A DNA stretch of 64,000 nucleotides from Streptomyces halstedii. Lineage in GTDB: Bacteria; Actinomycetota; Actinomycetes; Streptomycetales; Streptomycetaceae. Of the stretch, positions 4,638-14,107 are shown one piece after another; the stretch's first letter is position 1; the number at the start of each line of letters is the position of its first letter. Both the position numbers and the translations under genes were made by a program. Location: assembly GCA_000720535.1 (NCBI GenBank), contig JOAZ01000006.1, forward strand, positions 124,001 through 188,000. The letters are read 5' to 3'. The notes under the pieces are model-generated. The model worked only from the letters and a program-made list of their open reading frames with translations. It did no database searches and was not told where the DNA came from.

Positions 4638-5708
4638 TCAGCATGGCTCGGCACGCGGTCCGTTGACGGCCGCGAACCGCTCCCGCCACGGCAGCGGGGC
4701 AGGCTGCCCCTCGGCCAACTCCCGCTGCCGGAGCCAGAAGCGCCGGGCCTCCACCCGTCCGCACGGGCCGCACAGCTCCTCGCCGCGCACCGGCCGGAAG
4801 AGGTGTTCCTCGCCCGGCCCCGCACAGGGGATCATCGCGGCCACCACCGGCTTCGGCGCGGGCACCTCCGGCCGTGGTTCCTCCGGCAGCTTGTGCACGA
4901 GCCGGTACCGCAGGAACCCGACCGCCGACCGTACGCCCCCGTCCGGCAGTTCACTGGTCAGCACCCGCCGCAACTGGGCCGCCGTGATGCCCCGCCGCAG
5001 CCATTCGGCGGCCAGGGCGGCGAGGGTCCGGGCCTCCTTGGCCCCGAGGTACAACTCCCGGCACACGTGCCGCAACGACAGCAGCACCCGCTCACCCTCC
5101 GCGACATCCGGCGGCAACGACGCGTCCGGCGCTGACCCCGGCTCCGGGGCCGGATCCGGGGCCGGATCCGGCTTTCCCTCCGGGGCCGGGACCGGGTCCG
5201 GCTTCGCTTCGGAGGGTGGGTGGGGAGAGTTCTTCTCCCGTTCTTCGTCTACCGGTAGTTGACCACCGACCACCCGGTCCACCGGCTCACCGATGGCCGG
5301 TTCACCGACAGCCGGATCCCGCGCACCCGGGCACATCGCGGTCTCGGGGGCCTCCGAGGCCTCCAAGCTCTCCGAGGCACGCCCCAGACAGACCGTGGCG
5401 GCCTCGGCGGGCGTCAGGGAGACGTTCGAGAGCAACTGCGCCGTAGCCCAGAGCCCACGCACACCCTGCTCGCGCCGCTCGTGCAGGAACCCGTTCACCG
5501 CGAGGAGTTCCTTGGCCTTCTGGTACGCCCGTCCGGTGATGCCGAGCTTCCGCGCGTGTTCACTGAGCGGCCTGTCCGCCGATTCGGCGGTGAGCCCCTG
5601 CACATACAGCAGGAGAATCTTCGCGTCACTGGTGAGACGCGGATGGCGCACGACATCGTGCGAAGCCTTCGTGTAGCGCCGAGGGGGCGCGATAGCATGC
5701 CGAAGCAT
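4638..5708 (-). CDS. HTH-domain protein with C-terminal zinc-binding motif (Streptomyces dispersed family)
   Basis: A 356-residue protein in three parts. Residues 1-110 are a winged-HTH-like domain (RRYTKASHDVVRHPRLTSD, then LSEHARKLGITGRAYQKAKELL and NGFLHERREQGVRGLW), resembling replication-initiator/phage-type HTH domains. Residues ~120-220 are a Pro/Glu-rich low-complexity linker with PDPAPEP repeats. The C-terminal domain has CAGPGEEHLF...CGPCGR, likely one zinc site. I recall this as a multi-copy Streptomyces family with no characterised member. The long 5' leader (5709-5875) is shared with the relic at 3.3 kb. The gene upstream on the same strand is the orphan at 5876-6292. Confidence 0.75.
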   Translation of the reverse strand: MLRHAIAPPRRYTKASHDVVRHPRLTSDAKILLLYVQGLTAESADRPLSEHARKLGITGRAYQKAKELLAVNGFLHERREQGVRGLWATAQLLSNVSLTPAEAATVCLGRASESLEASEAPETAMCPGARDPAVGEPAIGEPVDRVVGGQLPVDEEREKNSPHPPSEAKPDPVPAPEGKPDPAPDPAPEPGSAPDASLPPDVAEGERVLLSLRHVCRELYLGAKEARTLAALAAEWLRRGITAAQLRRVLTSELPDGGVRSAVGFLRYRLVHKLPEEPRPEVPAPKPVVAAMIPCAGPGEEHLFRPVRGEELCGPCGRVEARRFWLRQRELAEGQPAPLPWRERFAAVNGPRAEPC

Positions 5709-5875
5709 TCCTGGTGGACTCCGTATCCACTAGCGGGTGAAGGCCCTCGGCCGGGTGTTGGTAGCACCCCCGGGGGCCGCCCTGCGCACGCGTGCGCACA
5801 GAGCGTAATGAGGCGATCACGCTATCGCACCGGAGGGACTCCCCGCACCCACAGGGCAGGGGAACACTCCTTCGA
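5709..5875 (-). repeat. Conserved leader between the orphan gene and the HTH gene (diverged second copy at 3341-3502)
   Basis: A 167-bp region lying entirely between two genes, yet retained in the second copy at 3341-3502. Shared blocks include the ATCAGGCACTCT stretch at the upstream gene stop, a TATCGC block, a G/C-rich stem region (CCCCCGGGGG at 5767-5776) and the bases just before the start codon. A non-coding segment conserved between paralogous loci is more likely a promoter/5'-UTR element, or part of the duplicated unit, than neutral spacer. Confidence 0.7.
5783..5798. promoter_or_regulatory. 16-bp perfect palindrome inside the leader
   Basis: TGCGCACGCGTGCGCA is a perfect palindrome about 80 bp upstream of the HTH gene start. 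The relic at 3.3 kb keeps GCGCAC here but not the symmetry. It is a candidate operator for the HTH protein or another regulator. The call rests on symmetry and position only. Confidence 0.45.
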
Positions 5876-6292
5876 TCAGGCACTCTCCAGAACACCGAGC
5901 GTCAGTTCGTGCAACAGCCCCGGATCGACGTACGGCACCTCACGCGTCGGTTTCGAGCGCCAGTCCAGCGGCCACGTACGCCCGTCGAGCGCCGGAACCC
6001 CGACGAAGGCGTCACACCGAGCGTCCCGCCCCATGAGGCGCGCACCCGCCGGCCACGGATACGCGGCGGCGGACCGTGGCGGCAGCAGGAAGTACACGTT
6101 CCGCTCCCCGACCCAGGACCGCACGATCGGCCCGGCCTGGAAGTCCGTGAACTGCATGATCTCGTACGCCACTTGCTCCCCCAGCACGCCGACCATCCGC
6201 ACGGCGTCGAAGTGCACCCCCGTATGCCGGAGGGCGTGCCCGCTCGCGGGAATCCAGGACGGCACCGACTCTGGTGAACTTTTCTGATCCAT
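5876..6292 (-). CDS. Hypothetical protein, 138 residues (partner of the HTH-leader module)
   Basis: A soluble 138-residue protein of unknown function. It has no signal peptide or membrane segment. Visible patterns are YFLLPPRSAAAYPWPAG and FVGVPALDGRTWPLDW. These resemble the N-terminal part of short Streptomyces proteins related to bifunctional primase/polymerase domains, but I cannot confirm that. The start is ATG at 6292, preceded by the intergenic region shared with the divergent HTH/DUF5753 gene. Its last codons and stop are also present, degenerate, in the relic at 3503-3516, so an ancestral unit probably contained this gene followed by the leader and HTH gene. Confidence 0.65.
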   Translation of the reverse strand: MDQKSSPESVPSWIPASGHALRHTGVHFDAVRMVGVLGEQVAYEIMQFTDFQAGPIVRSWVGERNVYFLLPPRSAAAYPWPAGARLMGRDARCDAFVGVPALDGRTWPLDWRSKPTREVPYVDPGLLHELTLGVLESA

Positions 6293-6343
6293 ACGGACAG
6301 CGTGAACGCCGACACATACGGTGACCAGAGTCACAGGGCGTCT

Positions 6344-6380
6344 GTGCACTGTCGTGTACTCGGGAGGCGGAGCTGTGCAC
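6344..6380. promoter_or_regulatory. Phased GTGCAC / GTGTAC / GTGCAC repeats before the HTH regulator gene
   Basis: Three 6-bp elements begin at 6344 (GTGCAC), 6354 (GTGTAC) and 6375 (GTGCAC). The spacings of 10 and 21 bp put them on the same face of the helix. The last overlaps the proposed GTG start of the downstream regulator gene. The layout suits cooperative autoregulation by that HTH protein; this is inference. Confidence 0.4.
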
Positions 6381-7187
6381 TCCGGTGAGCAGAGAAGCAG
6401 CAACGCGGAGATGTTCGGCACGCTGCTCCGCTTCTACCGCGAACGGGCCGGGCTGTCCCAGGAGGCACTTGGCGCGAAGATCGGTTTCTCCAAGTCGCAG
6501 GTGGCGATGGTGGAACGGGGAGAAAGGCCACCGAAGGGCGGGTTCATCGCGGGGGCGGACGCGGCGCTGGGTGCACAAGGTGCACTGGAGGCGGCGGGAG
6601 CGAAACTGCGGTACAGCTACCTGCCCGCGTGGACCGAGGAGTACACGGAGCACGAGGCTGTGGCGGTCGCACTGCACAACTACGAGAACCGGGTGATCCC
6701 CGGCATCCTCCAGACCACTGGTTACGCCGGCCACGTTTTCAGTTGTCACTGTCCACCGCTGGACGACGAGGAAATCGAAGGGCGCGTACAGACACGACTC
6801 GCACGGCACGCACTCCTTCGGCGCCGCCCCGCACCCATCGTCAGCTTCGTGCTCGAACAGAGCGTGCTCACACGCCCGATCGGCGGGGAACACGTTCTGA
6901 AAGAACAGTTGCACCATTTACTCGATGTAGCCCGGCTGCGGCACGTCGACATCCAGGTCATGCCACCGACCCGGCGCACACACGCGGCGTTGAACGGCCC
7001 CATCTTCCTGTTGGAGACACCGGAACACGAGCAGCTCGCCTACGTCGAGGGACAGGATGGGGGTAACTTCGTCAGCGACCAGGCCCGGCGTAACCACCTG
7101 TTCACCAGGTACAGCCTTCTCCGCGCCCAGGCTCACACCCCGGAGGATTCCTTGAAGCTGATCCGAGAAATTGCGGAGGCCCTATGA
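6375..7187 (+). CDS. XRE-family regulator with DUF5753 domain (Scr1-type)
   Basis: A 270-residue protein. The N-terminal XRE HTH spans about residues 14-65 (LLRFYRERAGLSQEALGAKIGFSKSQVAMVERGERPP). A DUF5753 ligand/partner domain follows (YENRVIPGILQTTGYA..., IVSFVLEQSVL, HVDIQVMPPTRRTH). Proteins of this class pair with small DUF397 proteins; the Scr1/Scr2 pair of S. coelicolor is described as antitoxin/toxin-like, and WhiJ is a developmental regulator of the same family. The next gene here is DUF397, overlapping by 4 bp (ATGA). I start at the GTG at 6375 because GGAGG lies seven bases upstream; in-frame GTGs at 6321 and 6354 are alternatives. Confidence 0.85.
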   Translation: MHSGEQRSSNAEMFGTLLRFYRERAGLSQEALGAKIGFSKSQVAMVERGERPPKGGFIAGADAALGAQGALEAAGAKLRYSYLPAWTEEYTEHEAVAVALHNYENRVIPGILQTTGYAGHVFSCHCPPLDDEEIEGRVQTRLARHALLRRRPAPIVSFVLEQSVLTRPIGGEHVLKEQLHHLLDVARLRHVDIQVMPPTRRTHAALNGPIFLLETPEHEQLAYVEGQDGGNFVSDQARRNHLFTRYSLLRAQAHTPEDSLKLIREIAEAL

Positions 7188-7567: not shown

Positions 7568-7831
7568 ATGGCGTTACGGTTCGTGGGCATGGACCCGGAG
7601 ACTACAGGAGGCGGCTCACCCACCGTGTGGGTCGATGAGCAGAGACAGGAGATCGTCATCCAGGGTTGGAGACTGGATGAGGCGCTGACGGCCGAAGTCG
7701 CTGGCACGGAGTGGGCTCTCGGCCACGACACGGGCATCCCTCCCCACGAGACGGCTCTCCGTGTGCCGGCTCGGATGGTGCCGATCCTGAGGGAGGCGTG
7801 CGATGCCGCAGAGCGTTCCGGACTTCGCTGA
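7568..7831 (+). CDS. Small hypothetical protein, first gene of the DUF6879/DUF5753 module
   Basis: An 87-residue acidic protein with no recognised domain. It begins MALRFVGMDPET and contains TVWVDEQRQEIVIQGW, a beta-hairpin-like pattern, then a region ending VPARMVPILREACDAA. The ATG at 7568 has a GGGAGA ribosome site eight bases upstream. It overlaps the DUF6879 gene by 29 bp, showing the two are made together. Small proteins of this kind recur before DUF6879 and DUF5753 genes in Streptomyces and probably play the role DUF397 plays in the neighbouring module; that is inference. Confidence 0.65.
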   Translation: MALRFVGMDPETTGGGSPTVWVDEQRQEIVIQGWRLDEALTAEVAGTEWALGHDTGIPPHETALRVPARMVPILREACDAAERSGLR

Positions 7832-8327
7832 ACTGCTGCGCGGAGCCGAACGCACGGCGGTTCACCTGGAAATGCGTGACGTCTACAGCGTGGCTGACGA
7901 GGCGGGCAGCTTCGAACGTTTCAAGCGAACCGGCGAGGCAGATCTCGATCCCGACTCGGCGTTCTGGGTCGGCTGGACCTCGATCGTCCGCGAGACGGTA
8001 GGCCGCGGCGTGGAGATCCGTCGAGCACGTGTCGTTTCCGAGCCGGTGACCGACTACATCCGCTACGAACACGCTCTGACTCCGGTGAACGTCGCCGTGG
8101 GCGAGAAGGTGCGGTGGTTGCCTCGTCGGCTGGCGTCGGACATCGCTCTCCCTGGCAACGACCTTTGGCTGATCGACAACCGCAAGGTCCTCTTCCACTG
8201 GTTCACCGGGGACGGTGATTGGGCGGGACACGCCTTCAACGACATGCCGGAGGTGGTCAAGATGGTCTCCACGGCGTTCGAGACGGTCTGGGAGCGGGGC
8301 GTCCCGCACGCGCATTACGCCACCTGA
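7803..8327 (+). CDS. DUF6879-family protein
   Basis: A 174-residue protein matching the DUF6879 pattern. It begins with FAELLRGAERTAVHLEMRD, has a central RGVEIRRARVVSEPVTDYIRYE block, then RWLPRR and DLWLIDNRKVLFHWF, and ends near the C-terminus with the GHAFNDMPEVV region. The family is uncharacterised and almost always next to DUF5753 HTH regulators. It overlaps the upstream small gene by 29 bp; the HTH gene starts 27 bp after its stop. Base composition is slightly less GC-rich than the core genes, fitting an accessory location. Confidence 0.8.
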   Translation: MPQSVPDFAELLRGAERTAVHLEMRDVYSVADEAGSFERFKRTGEADLDPDSAFWVGWTSIVRETVGRGVEIRRARVVSEPVTDYIRYEHALTPVNVAVGEKVRWLPRRLASDIALPGNDLWLIDNRKVLFHWFTGDGDWAGHAFNDMPEVVKMVSTAFETVWERGVPHAHYAT

Positions 8328-8354
8328 CCGCGACCCGCATCGGACAGTCCGCTC

Positions 8355-9203
8355 ATGCCGAAGTCACCCTCCTCCAGCGCTCAAGCCGCCCGGGAAGCAG
8401 TCGCCGTGCGCCTGCGCGAACTCATGCTGGAGGCGGGGCTCACTGGTACAGAGCTCGCTGTCCGGTGCCGCTGGAGTAGCGCCAAATCCTCTCGGATCAT
8501 CAACGCCAAGACTCAACCATCGGATTCCGACATCCGTACGTGGTGCTCTGCCTGTTGCGCTGACGACCAAGCCGGTGACCTGATCGCGGCTTCACGGGCA
8601 GTGGAGTCGATGTATCTGGAGTGGCGACGACTGCACAGGAACGGCATGCGCAAGGTCCAGCAAGACTTTTACACTCTGCACGAACGAACCTCCTTGTGCC
8701 GGTCCTACGCGTCGAACGCGGTACCGGGCTTCCTGCAGACACCCGCTTACGCTACAGCGCTGATGGCCGGCATCACCGACTTCCAGGGAACTCCCGACGA
8801 CATCGCCGAGGCCGTCGTCGCACGCGTGTCGCGCAGCCGGTTCCTTTACAAGGGCAACCATCGCTTCGTTGTCATCCTGGAGGAGTGGGTTCTTCGCTCA
8901 CAGATCGCGGACCGCGACACCATGGCCTGCCAACTCCGGCATCTCCTCCGGACGATGCCGCTGCCCTCCCTGTCTCTCGGCGTCATCCCTTTCACAGCCC
9001 GGCGGAGTATTTGGCCGTTGGAAGCGTTCTTCCTGTACGACGACCAGCGAGCCCTTGTGGAGACGCTGACTGCGGAGATCAACGTCACGCAACCGCGTGA
9101 GGTCACCGACTACCGCAAGGCATTCGCCGGGCTCATGGAGACGGCCGTCCACGGTGACAAAGCACGAGCACTGATCAATCACGCGATCGACGCCCTTGGC
9201 TGA
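8355..9203 (+). CDS. HTH regulator with DUF5753 domain (second module)
   Basis: A 282-residue protein with an N-terminal HTH at about residues 17-65 (LRELMLEAGLTGTELAVRCRWSSAKSSRI) and a DUF5753 domain from ~95 onward (YASNAVPGFLQTPAYATALM, VILEEWVLRSQI, LGVIPFTARRSIWPLEAFFLYD). It is the third gene of the module with the small protein at 7568 and DUF6879. The HTH is only distantly related to that of the first DUF5753 protein at 6375, so the two modules are not a simple tandem duplication. Its probable job is to repress or activate its own module, with the partner proteins tuning it. Confidence 0.82.
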   Translation: MPKSPSSSAQAAREAVAVRLRELMLEAGLTGTELAVRCRWSSAKSSRIINAKTQPSDSDIRTWCSACCADDQAGDLIAASRAVESMYLEWRRLHRNGMRKVQQDFYTLHERTSLCRSYASNAVPGFLQTPAYATALMAGITDFQGTPDDIAEAVVARVSRSRFLYKGNHRFVVILEEWVLRSQIADRDTMACQLRHLLRTMPLPSLSLGVIPFTARRSIWPLEAFFLYDDQRALVETLTAEINVTQPREVTDYRKAFAGLMETAVHGDKARALINHAIDALG

Positions 9204-9382
9204 GTGCGCGCAAGACCGTGCAAATTCGTTGAGGCCACACCATCTGTCTCCTTAGCGTGTCCAGTGCCGTACGGGGCCGAAGAAGCACGGCTTGTGCAGG
9301 CGTGAGCAGTACCATCCGCCAACTTCTCAAAGCCACGGCAGGCGGCCCCGTACCACTCGAACCCGCCGAGAGGAGCACCACC

Positions 9383-9787
9383 ATGGACACCCTCACCATC
9401 GAGCGCCGGGAACTCGGCCGCTTCCTCACCATCGCCGGACAGCGCTTCGACAGCGGCGATCCGGCCCCCGAGATGTTCTCGCGGGCCGTGGACGCCGCAT
9501 GGCACCGGATGCTGGCCACCCCGGAGTACAGGGAATTCAGCAAGCAGCACGCCGGGGCCGTCCTGGGACACTGCGAAAGAGGCGGCACCGGGTCGATCAC
9601 ATGGGTCTCCGCGTACGAGGAGACGTACGGGCCTCTGCCGGAGATCTGGTTCACCGACGCGAGCGGCGTCCTCGACCACGCGGCGTTCGCCCGTTACCGG
9701 AACACCGGCACCGTCGTGGCGGAGTGGGACTGCGGTCCCACCACCGGCGACGGTGACGATGTCTCCCCGGGAACCACGACCCCGTGA
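9383..9787 (+). CDS. Hypothetical protein, first gene of a four-gene coupled operon
   Basis: A 134-residue protein without a recognised domain. It is helical in the first two thirds (ERRELGRFLTIAGQRF, AWHRMLATPEYREF), followed by WFTDASGVLDHAAFARYR. It ends in the conspicuous tail EWDCGPTTGDGDD, with one of two Cys residues. The ATG at 9383 follows GAGAGGAGCACC, a good ribosome site. The GTG of the next gene overlaps its stop by 4 bp. I do not know the function. The acidic Trp-Asp-Cys tail could be a recognition or modification site for the kinase or GNAT made from the same operon. Confidence 0.7.
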   Translation: MDTLTIERRELGRFLTIAGQRFDSGDPAPEMFSRAVDAAWHRMLATPEYREFSKQHAGAVLGHCERGGTGSITWVSAYEETYGPLPEIWFTDASGVLDHAAFARYRNTGTVVAEWDCGPTTGDGDDVSPGTTTP

Positions 9788-10419
9788 CCGTCGCCCACGC
9801 GGACGGAGCGTCCTGGCACACCGCTGGGGCGCTCCGTCTCATTGAGCCGAGCAGCACACGGCCGGTGACCGTGGACGTCGCCTCCTACACGGAGCGGATG
9901 ACGGCCCATTGCCCCTACCTCGCCCCCTCACTCGAACGCGGCCTGACCACCTGGACCGTCTACCGCGCCGAGGGCGAAGCGGACGCCGTGGAGGCAGAGT
10001 TGTTCCGAGCCGGGGTCCAGGCTGCCGAATGGCTACGTCCCCTGCTGCACCGGCCGCACGGCCTTCTTCGGTGCGAGAACATCGTCGTCGTGGGCGATGT
10101 CCCCGGTACCACGCATCGCGCGCTCGTGACCTGGCCGCACTGGGTGCTCAAGCACCTCTACGGGCCCCTCGGGCTCATGTTCGGGAAGTTCTGCGCGGGA
10201 GAGGAGGAGACCTCGACGGCCGGTCGGCGCATCCCGGCCGCCCCGGTCTCGTTCCTCCCGGTGCGGGCCGCCGTCCGGCGGCGTGACCCGCGCCTCCTCC
10301 GGGCGACACCCGACCTTGCCGCGGCACTCGCCGTGGGCGATGACGACGGCCGGGATGTGTTCGCTCACCTGCCACGGGACTGGAAGGACATCCGGACATG
10401 GGCACGGAGCACGCTGTGA
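9784..10419 (+). CDS. DUF6875-like protein
   Basis: A 211-residue soluble protein. I place it tentatively in DUF6875 from its length and the patterns VDVASYTERMTAHCPYLAPS, HGLLRCENIVVVGDVPGTTHRALVTWPH, LYGPLGLMFGKF and VSFLPVRAAVRRRDPRLL. No catalytic motif is obvious to me. The GTG start overlaps the previous stop (GTGA), and its last 22 bp overlap the kinase-like gene, so it belongs to a translationally coupled operon. Uncharacterised proteins of this kind are often seen beside biosynthetic or modification genes; a specific role cannot be claimed. Confidence 0.65.
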   Translation: MTVAHADGASWHTAGALRLIEPSSTRPVTVDVASYTERMTAHCPYLAPSLERGLTTWTVYRAEGEADAVEAELFRAGVQAAEWLRPLLHRPHGLLRCENIVVVGDVPGTTHRALVTWPHWVLKHLYGPLGLMFGKFCAGEEETSTAGRRIPAAPVSFLPVRAAVRRRDPRLLRATPDLAAALAVGDDDGRDVFAHLPRDWKDIRTWARSTL

Positions 10420-11297
10420 TCCCGCCTCCGGCCGAAGCCGTCGGCATCCTCGAAGACCGCTTCGGCCGCCCTCTCGTCGCGGACCCCGTCAGCCGCCGTC
10501 GCGGCTCCCAGGTCTGGCGACTGACCGGTGACCATGTGCGCGTGGCTCTCAAGGCCGATGCGCCCGAGGGCGGCACCGCCCGTGGCACGGTGAGCGAAGT
10601 CGGCCAGGAGGACGCGGCCTTGACCGCTCTCATCGGCTCCGGCGCGCTGGATCCCGCGTACCGGGTCGCGGCCGGGCCCTGGGAAGGCGGACGTTGGCTG
10701 GCCGTACGGTGGATCGGCGGGCAACCACTCTGGCGCGCCCTCTCGACCGCGCGTGATCCTGAGGGGGACGGACCCGCCGTGCGCCCCTGGCTGCTCGGCA
10801 TCGCCCGCACCTGGGCCGAACGCCTCGCCCTCGTACACGCCGCGGGGTGGACGCACTCCGATGTCCAGCCCACCAACACCCTCGTCGACGCGGGCACCGC
10901 CCACCTGATCGACTACGCCCTCGCCTGCGGCCCCACGCACGTCGACCGCCTGCCGTACCGGGGAGCACTCACCCACACCACCGCCCCCGAGATCGCGGAC
11001 CGTCTCCTCTCCACCGCACCCGATACACATGTCCAGGCAGAGTGGCCGGCCGACATCTGGGGGCTGGGGGCCTCGCTCTTCTGGTGCTGGACGGGTATCC
11101 GGCCCTTCGCCTATGAGGACGACATCCCACGTGAGGAGAAGCTCAAGGTCATCGCGAAGGCCGGGACGACCCCTCTGCGCGATGTGCGGCCCTGGCCGTT
11201 TCCCGAGTTCGAGGAAGCCGTCACCGCCTGTCTGGCCCCTTCCCCCCAGGACCGGCCCTCCGGCGCGGAACTGGCCGCGCTTCTCGGTGCCTTGTGA
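10398..11297 (+). CDS. Protein kinase-like protein with HSD/DYA motifs
   Basis: A 299-residue eukaryotic-type kinase fold without a membrane segment or extracellular sensor, unlike typical Streptomyces Ser/Thr kinases. Key positions: VALK with Lys52; candidate helix-C Glu at 67 or 71; catalytic loop H153-S-D155-V-Q-P-T-N160 (HRD changed to HSD); metal-binding D172-Y-A in place of DFG; and A196-P-E198 as the APE motif. All charged catalytic residues are present, so activity is likely, but the HSD and DYA substitutions are atypical and suggest a kinase acting on a dedicated partner or small molecule. It overlaps both neighbours (22 bp and 4 bp). Confidence 0.8.
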   Translation: MGTEHAVIPPPAEAVGILEDRFGRPLVADPVSRRRGSQVWRLTGDHVRVALKADAPEGGTARGTVSEVGQEDAALTALIGSGALDPAYRVAAGPWEGGRWLAVRWIGGQPLWRALSTARDPEGDGPAVRPWLLGIARTWAERLALVHAAGWTHSDVQPTNTLVDAGTAHLIDYALACGPTHVDRLPYRGALTHTTAPEIADRLLSTAPDTHVQAEWPADIWGLGASLFWCWTGIRPFAYEDDIPREEKLKVIAKAGTTPLRDVRPWPFPEFEEAVTACLAPSPQDRPSGAELAALLGAL

Positions 11298-11773
11298 TCA
11301 CGCTCGCGCTCCGACTCCTCACACCGGCCGACGCCTCTGCCGTCCTGCGTATCTACAGCGGAGCTTCGGTGGCATTCCTGGGGCGCCCCGCGATGACCGT
11401 CCATGAGTCCGAGGAGTACGTCGCGCCGGTGCGGCACCGGACCGGGTCCGTCTCCGTCTCCGTCGCGCAGTACGTCTTCGGCGTGGAGGTCGCCGGGGAT
11501 CTGGTCGGTGTCGTCAAACTCGGCAGGCGCCCTGGTGGTCAAGGACGAGTGGGCTATGTCCTGCGCGAAGACTGCTGGGGCCGTGGCTACGCGACACAGG
11601 CCGTCCAGCAGCTCATCACCTTCGCCTTCGTCACGGTCGGCCTCGACTCGTTGGGCGCCAAGGTCCATCCCGACAACGTCGCCTCGGGCCGAGTCCTGGA
11701 GAAGGCCGGATTCACTCCGCTCGGGATGCGGGGCCGCATGATCACCTACCGCCTGGCCGCCTCGACGGACTGA
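11294..11773 (+). CDS. GNAT-family N-acetyltransferase
   Basis: A 159-residue RimJ/RimL-like GNAT. It begins LRLLTPADASAV, has the beta-4 strand VGVVKLGR and the acetyl-CoA loop GYVLREDCWGRGYATQAV (Gly-x-Gly-Tyr/Ala), and ends with HPDNVASGRVLEKAGF, the hallmark end of this subgroup. It transfers an acetyl group to an amine, often a protein N-terminus or an amino-sugar. It is the last gene of the four-gene operon, and its GTG overlaps the kinase stop (GTGA). With a kinase and two orphans it could act in modifying one shared substrate. Confidence 0.85.
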   Translation: MITLALRLLTPADASAVLRIYSGASVAFLGRPAMTVHESEEYVAPVRHRTGSVSVSVAQYVFGVEVAGDLVGVVKLGRRPGGQGRVGYVLREDCWGRGYATQAVQQLITFAFVTVGLDSLGAKVHPDNVASGRVLEKAGFTPLGMRGRMITYRLAASTD

Positions 11774-11860: not shown

Positions 11861-13201
11861 TCACGCGCCCACGGCGACCGCGTCCACGGCCGGGGTGCGC
11901 AGGGTCGTGCGGGCGGTTGCCAGCGTCGTGCCGAGGGTCGCGGCGGTGGCGACCGCGACGACGGCCAGCCAGGTGCCCGGCCCCTGGTCCGGCAGCACCT
12001 GGTCGGTGCGGACCATGGTGAAGGGGATGATCCCCGCGACCCCCGCCACCGTGCCCAGGAACAGCCCGGTCAGGGTGAGGACCACCGCTTCGCAGCCGAC
12101 CGTGCCCAGGACCTGGCGCGGGGTGGCCCCCGCGAGGCGTTGCCGGCCGAACTCGCCGCCCCGGTAGGAGGTGGCCGCGTACAGGCTGTTGACGAGCATC
12201 ACGCAGGAGAAGACGACGACGATGCCGACGACGACGAGGTTGAGGGTCTCCACGTTCTTGTCGTCCACGGTCTTGGCCAGGCCCGACGCCGTGACCCAGT
12301 CGCTCTCGACGGCCTGGATGTAGAGGGTCGCGGTCGCGATGCCGGTGAAGATGATCATCGGCATGAGCACTCCGGAGAGTTCCGCGCCGCGTCGGCGCAG
12401 GTGACGTGTGGTCAGGTAGCCGCTCGCGCCGCCGACCCGGTCCACCGGTCCCTGGAGCCGTCCCAGGACCCTGCCGAGCAGGGACGGGGCGAGGACGGCG
12501 AAGCCCACGGACAGCAGGATGGCCCCGTAGGCGGGGAAGGCCATCAGCATCTCCTCGGTGCCGTCCATGGCGTACGTGGTCGAGATGCCCGCGGCTCCCG
12601 CGACCAGGGCGGCGGTGCCCGCGAGGGCGCGGCCCCGGCCGCCCCGCCGGGTGCGGGCTCCGGCGGCCGCCCTGGTGGCGCGGCGTACGGCGAGGAACGC
12701 GGCGCCCGCCGTGGCCAGCAGCACGATGCCGGTCCCGGAGCCCAGGGCGACCGGACCGAAGACCGGATCGACCCGTTCGGAGACCTGACCGCTGTCCTGG
12801 AACAGCCCGACCAGGACCCGTCCGCCGAGTACGGCGGGGCCCACGGCCGCCAGGGTGGCGACCGTGGCGACGACGACCGCCTCCCCGACGACCATGCGCG
12901 TGATCTGGGCGGGGGTGGCGCCGGTGCAGCGCAACAGGTGCGTCTCCGCCGCTCGTTGGCGGACGTTGACGGTGAGGGTGGAGGCGATGGCGAAGAAGAC
13001 GAGGAGGGAGCCGTAGCCGCCGACCACGCTCGCCGAGAGCGTCAGCGACTCCGCGCTGGCGTCGTCGGTCCCGGGGGCGGCGGCCGTGTCGAACAGCGAG
13101 CTGAACGTCATGATGATCACGGCGCCGAGGAACGCGGAGAGCAGCGTGGCGGCGAAGCGCCCCGGGCGCTGCCGGACCGAACGCAGCGCCAGGAAGAACA
13201 C
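11861..13201 (-). CDS. FtsX-type ABC transporter permease
   Basis: A 446-residue MacB/LolE-like permease with two FtsX domains and about eight membrane segments. The first domain contains the RQRAAETHLLRCTGATPAQI coupling helix, and the second RGGEFGRQRLAGATPRQVLGTV, where the permease meets the ATPase. It starts with GTG at 13201, 3 bp after the ATPase stop, in one transcript. Systems of this type export peptides or hydrophobic compounds, or pull lipids from the membrane; substrate unknown. The length suits a complete single-polypeptide permease that acts as a homodimer. Confidence 0.87.
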   Translation of the reverse strand: MFFLALRSVRQRPGRFAATLLSAFLGAVIIMTFSSLFDTAAAPGTDDASAESLTLSASVVGGYGSLLVFFAIASTLTVNVRQRAAETHLLRCTGATPAQITRMVVGEAVVVATVATLAAVGPAVLGGRVLVGLFQDSGQVSERVDPVFGPVALGSGTGIVLLATAGAAFLAVRRATRAAAGARTRRGGRGRALAGTAALVAGAAGISTTYAMDGTEEMLMAFPAYGAILLSVGFAVLAPSLLGRVLGRLQGPVDRVGGASGYLTTRHLRRRGAELSGVLMPMIIFTGIATATLYIQAVESDWVTASGLAKTVDDKNVETLNLVVVGIVVVFSCVMLVNSLYAATSYRGGEFGRQRLAGATPRQVLGTVGCEAVVLTLTGLFLGTVAGVAGIIPFTMVRTDQVLPDQGPGTWLAVVAVATAATLGTTLATARTTLRTPAVDAVAVGA

Positions 13202-13204
13202 GGC

Positions 13205-14107
13205 TCACACCCCCGGCAGCGGGTCGCCCTGCGGATGCCGGGCGGCGGCCCGGTCCCCGAGGGGGTTCACGCCTTGCCCAGCCCGGTCCCCGAGGTGGGC
13301 CAGGCGTTCCGCGGCCCGGTCCCCCAGGTGGTTCACGCGTTCCGCGGCCCGGTCCCCCAGGTGGGTCATGCGTTCCGCGACCGCCTCGGCGGTGGGCGCG
13401 CGCAGTTCTCCCGCCGGCCGGCCGTCCGCGAGGAACACCACGGAGTCTGCGTAGGCGGCGGCCACCGGGTCGTGGGTGACCAGGACGACGGTGCGGCCGT
13501 GCAGCCGTACGGTCTCCCGGAGCAGGGTCAGCACCTCGCGGGCGCTGCGGGTGTCCAGCGCGCCGGTCGGCTCGTCGGCGAAGATCACGCTCGGCTCGGT
13601 GACCAAGGCGCGGGCGATGGCGACGCGCTGGCGCTGTCCGCCGGAGAGTTCGTCGGGGCGGTGGGTGAGGCGTTCGCCGAGCCCCACCTGGGTGAGGATC
13701 GTCCGGGCGCGTTCCTGGTCGACGGGTCGGCCGGCCAGCCGCAGCGGCAGGACGGTGTTCTCCGCCACGGTGAGGGTCGGCAGCAGGTTGTACTGCTGGA
13801 AGACGAAGCCGATGCGGTCCCGGCGGAACTTCGTGAGCGCCGCCTCGCCGCCGCCCGTCATCTCCTCGCCGTCCACCACGATCTGCCCCCGGTCGGGGCG
13901 GTCCAGCCCGGCGGCGCACTGGAGGAGCGTGGACTTCCCGGAACCCGAGGGGCCCATGACCGCCGTGAACGTCCCGGCGCGCAGGCTCAGGCTCACCTCG
14001 TCCAAAGCGGTCACGGCGCCGCCCCCGGTTCCGTACACCTTGCTCACCGACACCAGCCGCAGTGCCTCGGCCGACCGCCGCGGAGGTCGCCGTCTGCGAG
14101 CGAACAT
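13205..14107 (-). CDS. ABC transporter ATPase (LolD/MacB type) with repetitive C-terminus
   Basis: A 300-residue ATPase. Walker A is GPSGSGKST, the Q-loop is in VFQQYNLLP, the signature is [15 protein letters not shown], Walker B is [12 protein letters not shown], and the H-loop is VLVTHD. All are intact. After the ~225-residue catalytic domain it carries an unusual tail (residues ~242-286) of four 11-residue repeats close to [11 protein letters not shown]. The start at the ATG at 14107 puts a basic leader (ARRRRPPRR) before the core domain; GTG 6 bp upstream is an alternative. It is divergent from the cstR-like gene and co-transcribed with the downstream permease. Confidence 0.87.
13251..13382 (-). 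repeat. Four 33-bp in-frame tandem repeats in the ABC ATPase gene
   Basis: Units begin at 13251, 13284, 13317 and 13350. Each begins, on the + strand, with CGGTCCCC and encodes an 11-residue unit of the form (M/V/L)[10 protein letters not shown]. Units 2-4 are nearly identical; the unit nearest the stop is more diverged. Copy number probably varies between strains. Confidence 0.9.

Follow-up and report, generated by a model that had tools for sequence, protein, structure and literature searches.

A conserved Streptomyces gene cassette combines a small protein bearing an invariant Trp-Asp/Asn-Cys tail with a DUF6875-like protein, a divergent kinase and an acetyltransferase

In a 64,000-nucleotide stretch of the Streptomyces halstedii genome (assembly GCA_000720535.1, contig JOAZ01000006.1, positions 124,001 to 188,000; the window), four consecutive forward-strand genes at 9383-11773 raise the question of why they are encoded together, and whether the small protein encoded first is acted on by the products of the other three. 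The first gene (9383..9787; alignment A1) encodes a protein of 134 amino acids, which we call the orphan and which is the proposed substrate; codons 115-119 (9725..9739) encode W-D-C-G-P, an instance of the tail motif W-[DN]-C-x-P. It is followed by the genes for a DUF6875-like protein of 211 amino acids (9784..10419), proposed to be a heme enzyme, a divergent protein kinase of 299 amino acids with HSD and DYA motifs (10398..11297), and a GNAT acetyltransferase of 159 amino acids (11294..11773). A preliminary description, made from the sequence alone, had correctly placed these four open reading frames and their overlaps (4 bp between the orphan and DUF6875-like genes, 22 bp between the DUF6875-like and kinase genes, and 4 bp between the kinase and GNAT genes), and had proposed that the four proteins act on one substrate, possibly the small protein itself.

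Conservation of the four-gene cassette

We searched 295 genomes of the genus Streptomyces for the DUF6875 protein and found a match in 21, giving 22 loci (two in one genome), all of which were examined. At least 85% of the DUF6875 protein is covered in 14 of these 22 loci, in one frame in 12 of them and in two frames in two (L040 and L046), and all 14 have the orphan upstream and a kinase downstream. A GNAT of the same kind is present in 13 of these 14 full loci, including L046, where only 22% of it is present and the kinase lies in two frames; at the fourteenth (L043), that position is occupied by a GNAT from a different Pfam subfamily. The remaining 8 loci are partial, with 17-78% of DUF6875, and none of the eight contains the orphan, which is present at every locus with at least 80% of DUF6875. 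The full gene order also occurs at L089 and L090, on a viral contig (L113) and on a Streptomyces decoyicus plasmid (L098). That these genes form a conserved cassette is near certain.

Close relatives of the kinase (E<=1e-40, a threshold that excludes a second kinase lineage described below) were found in 15 of the 295 genomes. DUF6875 or its remnant adjoins the kinase in 14 of these 15, and the 134-amino-acid orphan in only 10, so that every long DUF6875 found comes with the orphan, whereas the kinase outlives both. The preliminary description had considered that its proposal would fail if homologues of the kinase and GNAT lay mostly apart from the orphan and DUF6875-like genes; our counts speak against such a separation as regards DUF6875, and less clearly so as regards the orphan. 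The check that it proposed, whether the four genes stay together at homologous loci, has a positive outcome at all 14 full loci, and not for six orphan-less kinases that are considered below.

Outside the genus, DUF6875 proteins of the window kind were found in 6 of 394 genomes drawn from the class. Two of the six are from other families. The first (L091) contains the orphan, DUF6875 and the kinase, and neither tblastn with two GNATs nor inspection by eye revealed a GNAT there; the second (L092) contains DUF6879, an XRE regulator, the orphan, DUF6875 and a different GNAT. Eight plasmid records matched DUF6875, all from Streptomyces and five of them over at least 80% of the protein. Two of these plasmids were inspected: the S. 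decoyicus plasmid, which carries all four genes, and a Streptomyces zaomyceticus plasmid (L097), which retains only 21% of the kinase and gave no match to the GNAT. The latter plasmid also carries an annotated Pycsar cyclase/effector pair (L097:13194-14422) approximately 3 kb from the cassette.

The orphan protein and its tail

The orphan matched once in the window's own genome, and showed no Pfam match at E<=5, no PADLOC match and no hit in a search of phage sequences; it gave a single 14-bit NCBIfam match (cut-off 50) and only three matches to PDB sequences (E 0.54-0.86). The WDC-containing tail pointed out in the preliminary description is a real feature of the family, since all 18 aligned orphans have W-[DN]-C-x-P, as do the five others (L089, L090, L095, L097 and L098), i.e., 23 of 23. 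Over 61 columns, the N-terminal half of the orphan aligns with small DxxWH proteins (hhalign 97%), a match that is partly circular because the 20 DxxWH proteins compared were gathered via the orphan's own profile. These proteins, which we take to be glycine-rich-domain-like (GRDP-like), share with the orphan the motif D-x-x-W-H ... Y-x-x-F-C ... G ... H, but W-[DN]-C occurs in none of the 20, all from outside the cassette, and none of the four that were scanned matched Pfam. Lanthionine formation in the orphan tail was also considered, and was set aside as a general rule, several tails having a single Ser/Thr after the Cys.

The DUF6875-like protein

The second protein of the cassette matches PF21780 with 27.2 bits (cut-off 24.5) and so belongs to this family, and a match at E<=1 to the same model was obtained for each of the 12 rows of alignment A2, the window row among them. 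Profile comparison with six typical DUF6875 members gave 92.6% and E 4.5e-7 over 134 columns at approximately 20% identity; a search of PDB sequences with the window protein gave no match. All 15 window-type and all 6 typical DUF6875 rows contain CP[YF], and the His of H-x3-K was seen, by eye, in 14 of 15 and 5 of 6, respectively (12 and 5 with a stricter pattern). Cys43 and His119 are candidate heme ligands.

In PMC13307353, which cites the preprint 10.64898/2025.12.11.692455, DUF6875 proteins are reported to be heme-binding enzymes that oxidise tryptophan; deletion of zigI, a DUF6875 gene, led to a demethoxylated compound, and C-7 hydroxylation was proposed. These heme enzymes ("cytochrome P422", including ZigI of zigralone biosynthesis) have PF21780, CP[YF], H-x3-K and M-x-G-x-F in common with the window protein, which differs from typical members in its approximately 20% identity to them and in lying next to a small protein whose tail has an invariant Trp.

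The orphan was found at none of the six typical DUF6875 loci. Neighboring genes were scanned at three of these loci: in L110 (6168-10064), the DUF6875 gene lies amid genes for tryptophan 2,3-dioxygenase, kynureninase and an O-methyltransferase, and in L107 amid genes for a P450, a berberine-type oxidase and an aminotransferase. The L110 region is likely a hydroxy- or methoxy-tryptophan pathway. In L112, two segments (5396-6691 and 12586-13881), each with one gene for 278 and one for 150 amino acids, flank the typical DUF6875 gene in opposite orientation, and these are perhaps two copies of an insertion element.

The kinase and the acetyltransferase

The kinase matches PF00069 with 33.8 bits (cut-off 31.7), and among NCBIfam models it scores highest against the kinase portion of LanL (53.5 bits, far under the model cut-off of 650). 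Our analysis confirmed each of the residues singled out in the preliminary description, with HSD for HRD and DYA for DFG, and with Lys52, Asp155, Asn160 and Asp172 retained, so that the catalytic Lys, Asp, Asn and DFG-Asp set of the window kinase is complete. None of the 17 aligned kinase rows, window included, departs from Lys52, Asp155 or Asp172. A second kinase lineage (L041, L042, L043, L045 and L052 in alignment A3) has HxDLQP[SA]H in the catalytic loop. The orphan and DUF6875 trees allow one to three changes of kinase lineage and do not require that kinases were exchanged between cassettes.

The GNAT matches PF13302 (Acetyltransf_3; 91.9 bits, cut-off 25.4), and its position is filled by GNATs of other kinds in L092 (10725-11285) and L043 (6752-7207). 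Where the kinase or the GNAT differs, its place can be taken by a protein of the same function, i.e., by the second kinase lineage or by these other GNATs.

Orphan homologs on Macrococcus plasmids

Two mobilizable Macrococcus plasmids encode an orphan approximately 33% identical to the window protein, with the tail EWDCVP. In one of these, CP124578.1 (L096, 5465-11374), the orphan is followed by genes for a PknB-like kinase, a GNAT, a lyase domain, a tentative DUF6875-like protein, an MFS transporter and a HelD-like protein (315 bits, under the model cut-off of 419). The lyase domain is a stand-alone RamC/LanKC lyase domain of 158 amino acids (57.8 bits, cut-off 27), which also matches solved LanKC chains. 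In the sister plasmid, the DUF6875-like gene is shortened. The gene set of CP124578.1 looks like a small biosynthetic cluster with export, and the HelD-like protein hints at RNA polymerase as a target.

Proposed function of the cassette and its alternatives

Our favored reading, which we hold tentatively and at less than an even chance, is that the orphan is a ribosomal substrate, with Trp115 oxidised by the DUF6875 protein and the product modified further by the kinase and the GNAT. The invariant tail, the tryptophan chemistry reported for DUF6875 and the Macrococcus plasmid together lend support to the orphan being a substrate. The N-terminal domain of the orphan would serve for recognition, and the C-terminal tail with the invariant W-[DN]-C-x-P would be the part that is modified. 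The DUF6875-like protein would oxidise Trp115, either by hydroxylation or by linking it to Cys117, and the kinase and GNAT would then phosphorylate and acetylate either the tail after its oxidation or a product released from it. We infer heme binding by the window variant, Trp115 as the target, the order of these steps and any release of a small product. Ribosomally synthesised and post-translationally modified peptides (RiPPs), whose pathways the cassette would resemble on this reading, are made from a precursor with a leader and a modified core; what is seen here, at the level of sequence, is a conserved domain and an invariant tail.

The lanthipeptide systems are among the closest known. 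According to PMC9486802, the kinase of the class V pair CaoK/CaoY works with a ribosomal substrate. As for the synthetases LanKC and LanL of classes III and IV, the best NCBIfam match of the window kinase is to LanL, and the Macrococcus version of the cassette has a stand-alone LanKC-type lyase domain. The cassette differs from these systems in that no lyase or cyclase match was found among the window genes scanned, and in that the proposed substrate is a 134-amino-acid protein, with a single Ser/Thr after the Cys in several tails.

Several observations weigh against our favored reading. Foremost among these, an open kinase is present without the orphan at six loci (L039, L047, L048, L052, L115 and L116), and three of these (L039, L047 and L048) retain the GNAT as well. 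This persistence disfavors a kinase that serves the orphan alone, and is the chief result against the reading; of the preliminary proposal that the four proteins share one substrate, the part that casts the small protein in this role has gained support from the evidence given above, and a kinase dedicated to it has lost ground. These orphan-less kinases come from both cassette lineages, and the kinase may act independently. Conversely, L092 contains the orphan and no kinase, and Asn160 is replaced by His in 5 of 17 kinase rows, those of the second lineage. Trp40, Trp74 and Trp89 of the orphan are likewise invariant, so Trp115 may be structural, and the tail motif was not seen in a fragment of the orphan in L093. 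The likeness of the window protein to typical DUF6875 is weak (27 bits), the relative on the viral contig scores 20.1 bits, under the cut-off, and His119 is replaced by Ala in L092 and by Gln in one of the typical members. AlphaFold models, made for the window protein and one viral-contig relative each of the DUF6875-like protein and the orphan, were of low confidence (mean predicted local distance difference test score, pLDDT, of 43 for DUF6875 and 54 for the orphan) and gave no structural support for heme binding. The substrates known for DUF6875 proteins are small molecules. Neither a lyase nor a protease nor a conserved exporter was recognised, the lyase being sought with Pfam and NCBIfam among the window genes scanned, and an ABC-type permease beside the window cassette, named by eye, had no match in 24 loci. 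In Macrococcus, the DUF6875-like protein is tentative (hhalign 4%, with shuffles reaching up to 0.4%), the GNAT is on the opposite strand, and the sister plasmid has the orphan and a transporter with no annotated kinase, GNAT or lyase.

The strongest rival, a minority possibility that we take seriously, is a small-molecule pathway in which DUF6875 would oxidise free tryptophan or a derivative, the kinase and GNAT would phosphorylate and acetylate the product, and the orphan would be a carrier, chaperone or partner subunit of the heme enzyme. ZigI, for which PMC13307353 proposes a small-molecule substrate, and the typical DUF6875 gene amid tryptophan catabolism genes are both consistent with such a pathway, as is the presence of the orphan wherever at least 80% of DUF6875 is found, which fits an enzyme and its partner; the kinase and GNAT can, moreover, persist without the orphan. 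However, no tryptophan-pathway gene was found among the scanned window genes or the annotated genes of two plasmid loci, none of the six typical DUF6875 loci shows the orphan, and the tail motif survives at 33% identity across phyla.

We regard as unlikely a defence or toxin-antitoxin-like system, in which the kinase would be an effector restrained by the orphan and XRE, with DUF6875 and the GNAT tuning the kinase. Its attraction lies in a match of the kinase to PADLOC PD-T4-6 models (46.5 bits), in the occurrence of the cassette on Streptomyces plasmids, in its patchy distribution (21 of 295 genomes, with partial copies at 8 of 22 loci), and in the Pycsar pair approximately 3 kb away on one plasmid. 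However, these models score as high as 102 bits against the Macrococcus kinase, which is only distantly similar, and the PD-T4-6 matches look like general kinase matches, no match specific to PD-T4-6 having been found. In addition, the orphan has no PADLOC match, L092 has no kinase, and six kinases occur without the orphan meant to restrain them.

Slightly less likely again is detoxification, whereby XRE would sense a foreign compound, the kinase and GNAT would inactivate it, and DUF6875 would assist by oxidation. Kinases, acetyltransferases and heme oxidases are classical drug-modifying activities, and both a weak match of the GNAT to BlmB (25.5 bits, cut-off 625) and the persistence of the kinase and GNAT alone in L039, L047 and L048 are in keeping with it, but it leaves the invariant orphan and its tail without a role, and the GNAT matches the general Acetyltransf_3 model far better than any resistance model. 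Finally, a chance grouping of ordinary neighbors with separate roles is highly improbable: short gene overlaps are commonplace in Streptomyces, and it is not these but the conserved gene order that exceeds chance, an order kept in 14 of 14 loci, with the orphan and DUF6875 also together in two other families and on plasmids.

If our favored reading is correct and the orphan is the substrate, the tryptophan oxidation reported for this family of heme enzymes would extend to a protein that is itself genetically encoded, and a compact set of genes, regulators included, would give access to new peptide chemistry. The cassette may make a modified peptide in a new way, and, as the gene set is small and the substrate candidate clear, the idea is readily testable. 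In a literature search that covered few subscription papers and no preprints, no title described such a cassette. A bolder version appears doubtful to us, namely that the cassette represents a new class of ribosomal product, in which the invariant Trp-Asp/Asn-Cys tail of a small protein would be oxidised by a non-P450 DUF6875 heme enzyme and then phosphorylated and acetylated. On this version, the Macrococcus plasmid, from the Firmicutes, would follow the same logic, and its transporter and its HelD-like protein, of a kind that recycles RNA polymerase, hint that the product acts on RNA polymerase.

Upstream genes and a shared operator-like element

The four genes that the preliminary description reported are real, but it overlooked the meaning of DUF6875 and the full extent of the unit, which also takes in three genes upstream (7568-9203), together with an operator-like element at 9210-9255. 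The first of these genes, all on the forward strand, encodes a small protein of 87 amino acids (7568..7831) and overlaps the gene for a DUF6879 protein of 174 amino acids (7803..8327; PF21806, 188 bits); the third encodes an XRE regulator of 282 amino acids with the Pfam domains HTH_31 and DUF5753 (8355..9203). DUF6879 and an XRE-DUF5753 regulator are upstream in 10 of the 14 full loci, window included, with an XRE identity of 34-68% outside the window, and the 87-amino-acid protein was matched (tblastn, E<=0.004) just before DUF6879 in 14 of 31 loci, window included. A literature search found no paper on DUF6879, and one on DUF6875.

Alignment of the stretch preceding the orphan in 14 loci revealed a shared element, GCAA-N6-GCAA-N5-TTG[AG]-N20-TAG, located on the forward strand of the window at 9210..9255 and including an 11-bp inverted repeat, CAA-N5-TTG. 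We scanned both strands of 37 loci (725,763 bases), and found 13 core-pattern sites in 11 loci where 0.2 were expected, and the whole pattern in 9 loci where 0 were expected, an enrichment that is only partly independent because the pattern was derived from some of the loci scanned. Eleven of the core sites lie directly after the XRE stop codon, and two before the gene for the 87-amino-acid protein. An XRE regulator at least 43% identical to that of the window is present in 12 loci, and the element is present in 11 of these (not in L092). From this conservation, we infer that the element is the operator and promoter of the operon and is bound by XRE. The XRE regulator, with DUF6879 and the 87-amino-acid protein, would thus control a promoter that yields the orphan and the three enzymes.

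The literature on Scr1/Scr2, an XRE-DUF397 pair of Streptomyces coelicolor, describes a similar arrangement, in that an XRE regulator lies beside a small DUF protein; in the cassette, the partner is instead DUF6879 with the 87-amino-acid protein, tied to one enzyme cassette through the operator-like element. A second XRE-DUF5753 regulator is encoded further upstream of the cassette, at 6321-7187 of the window.

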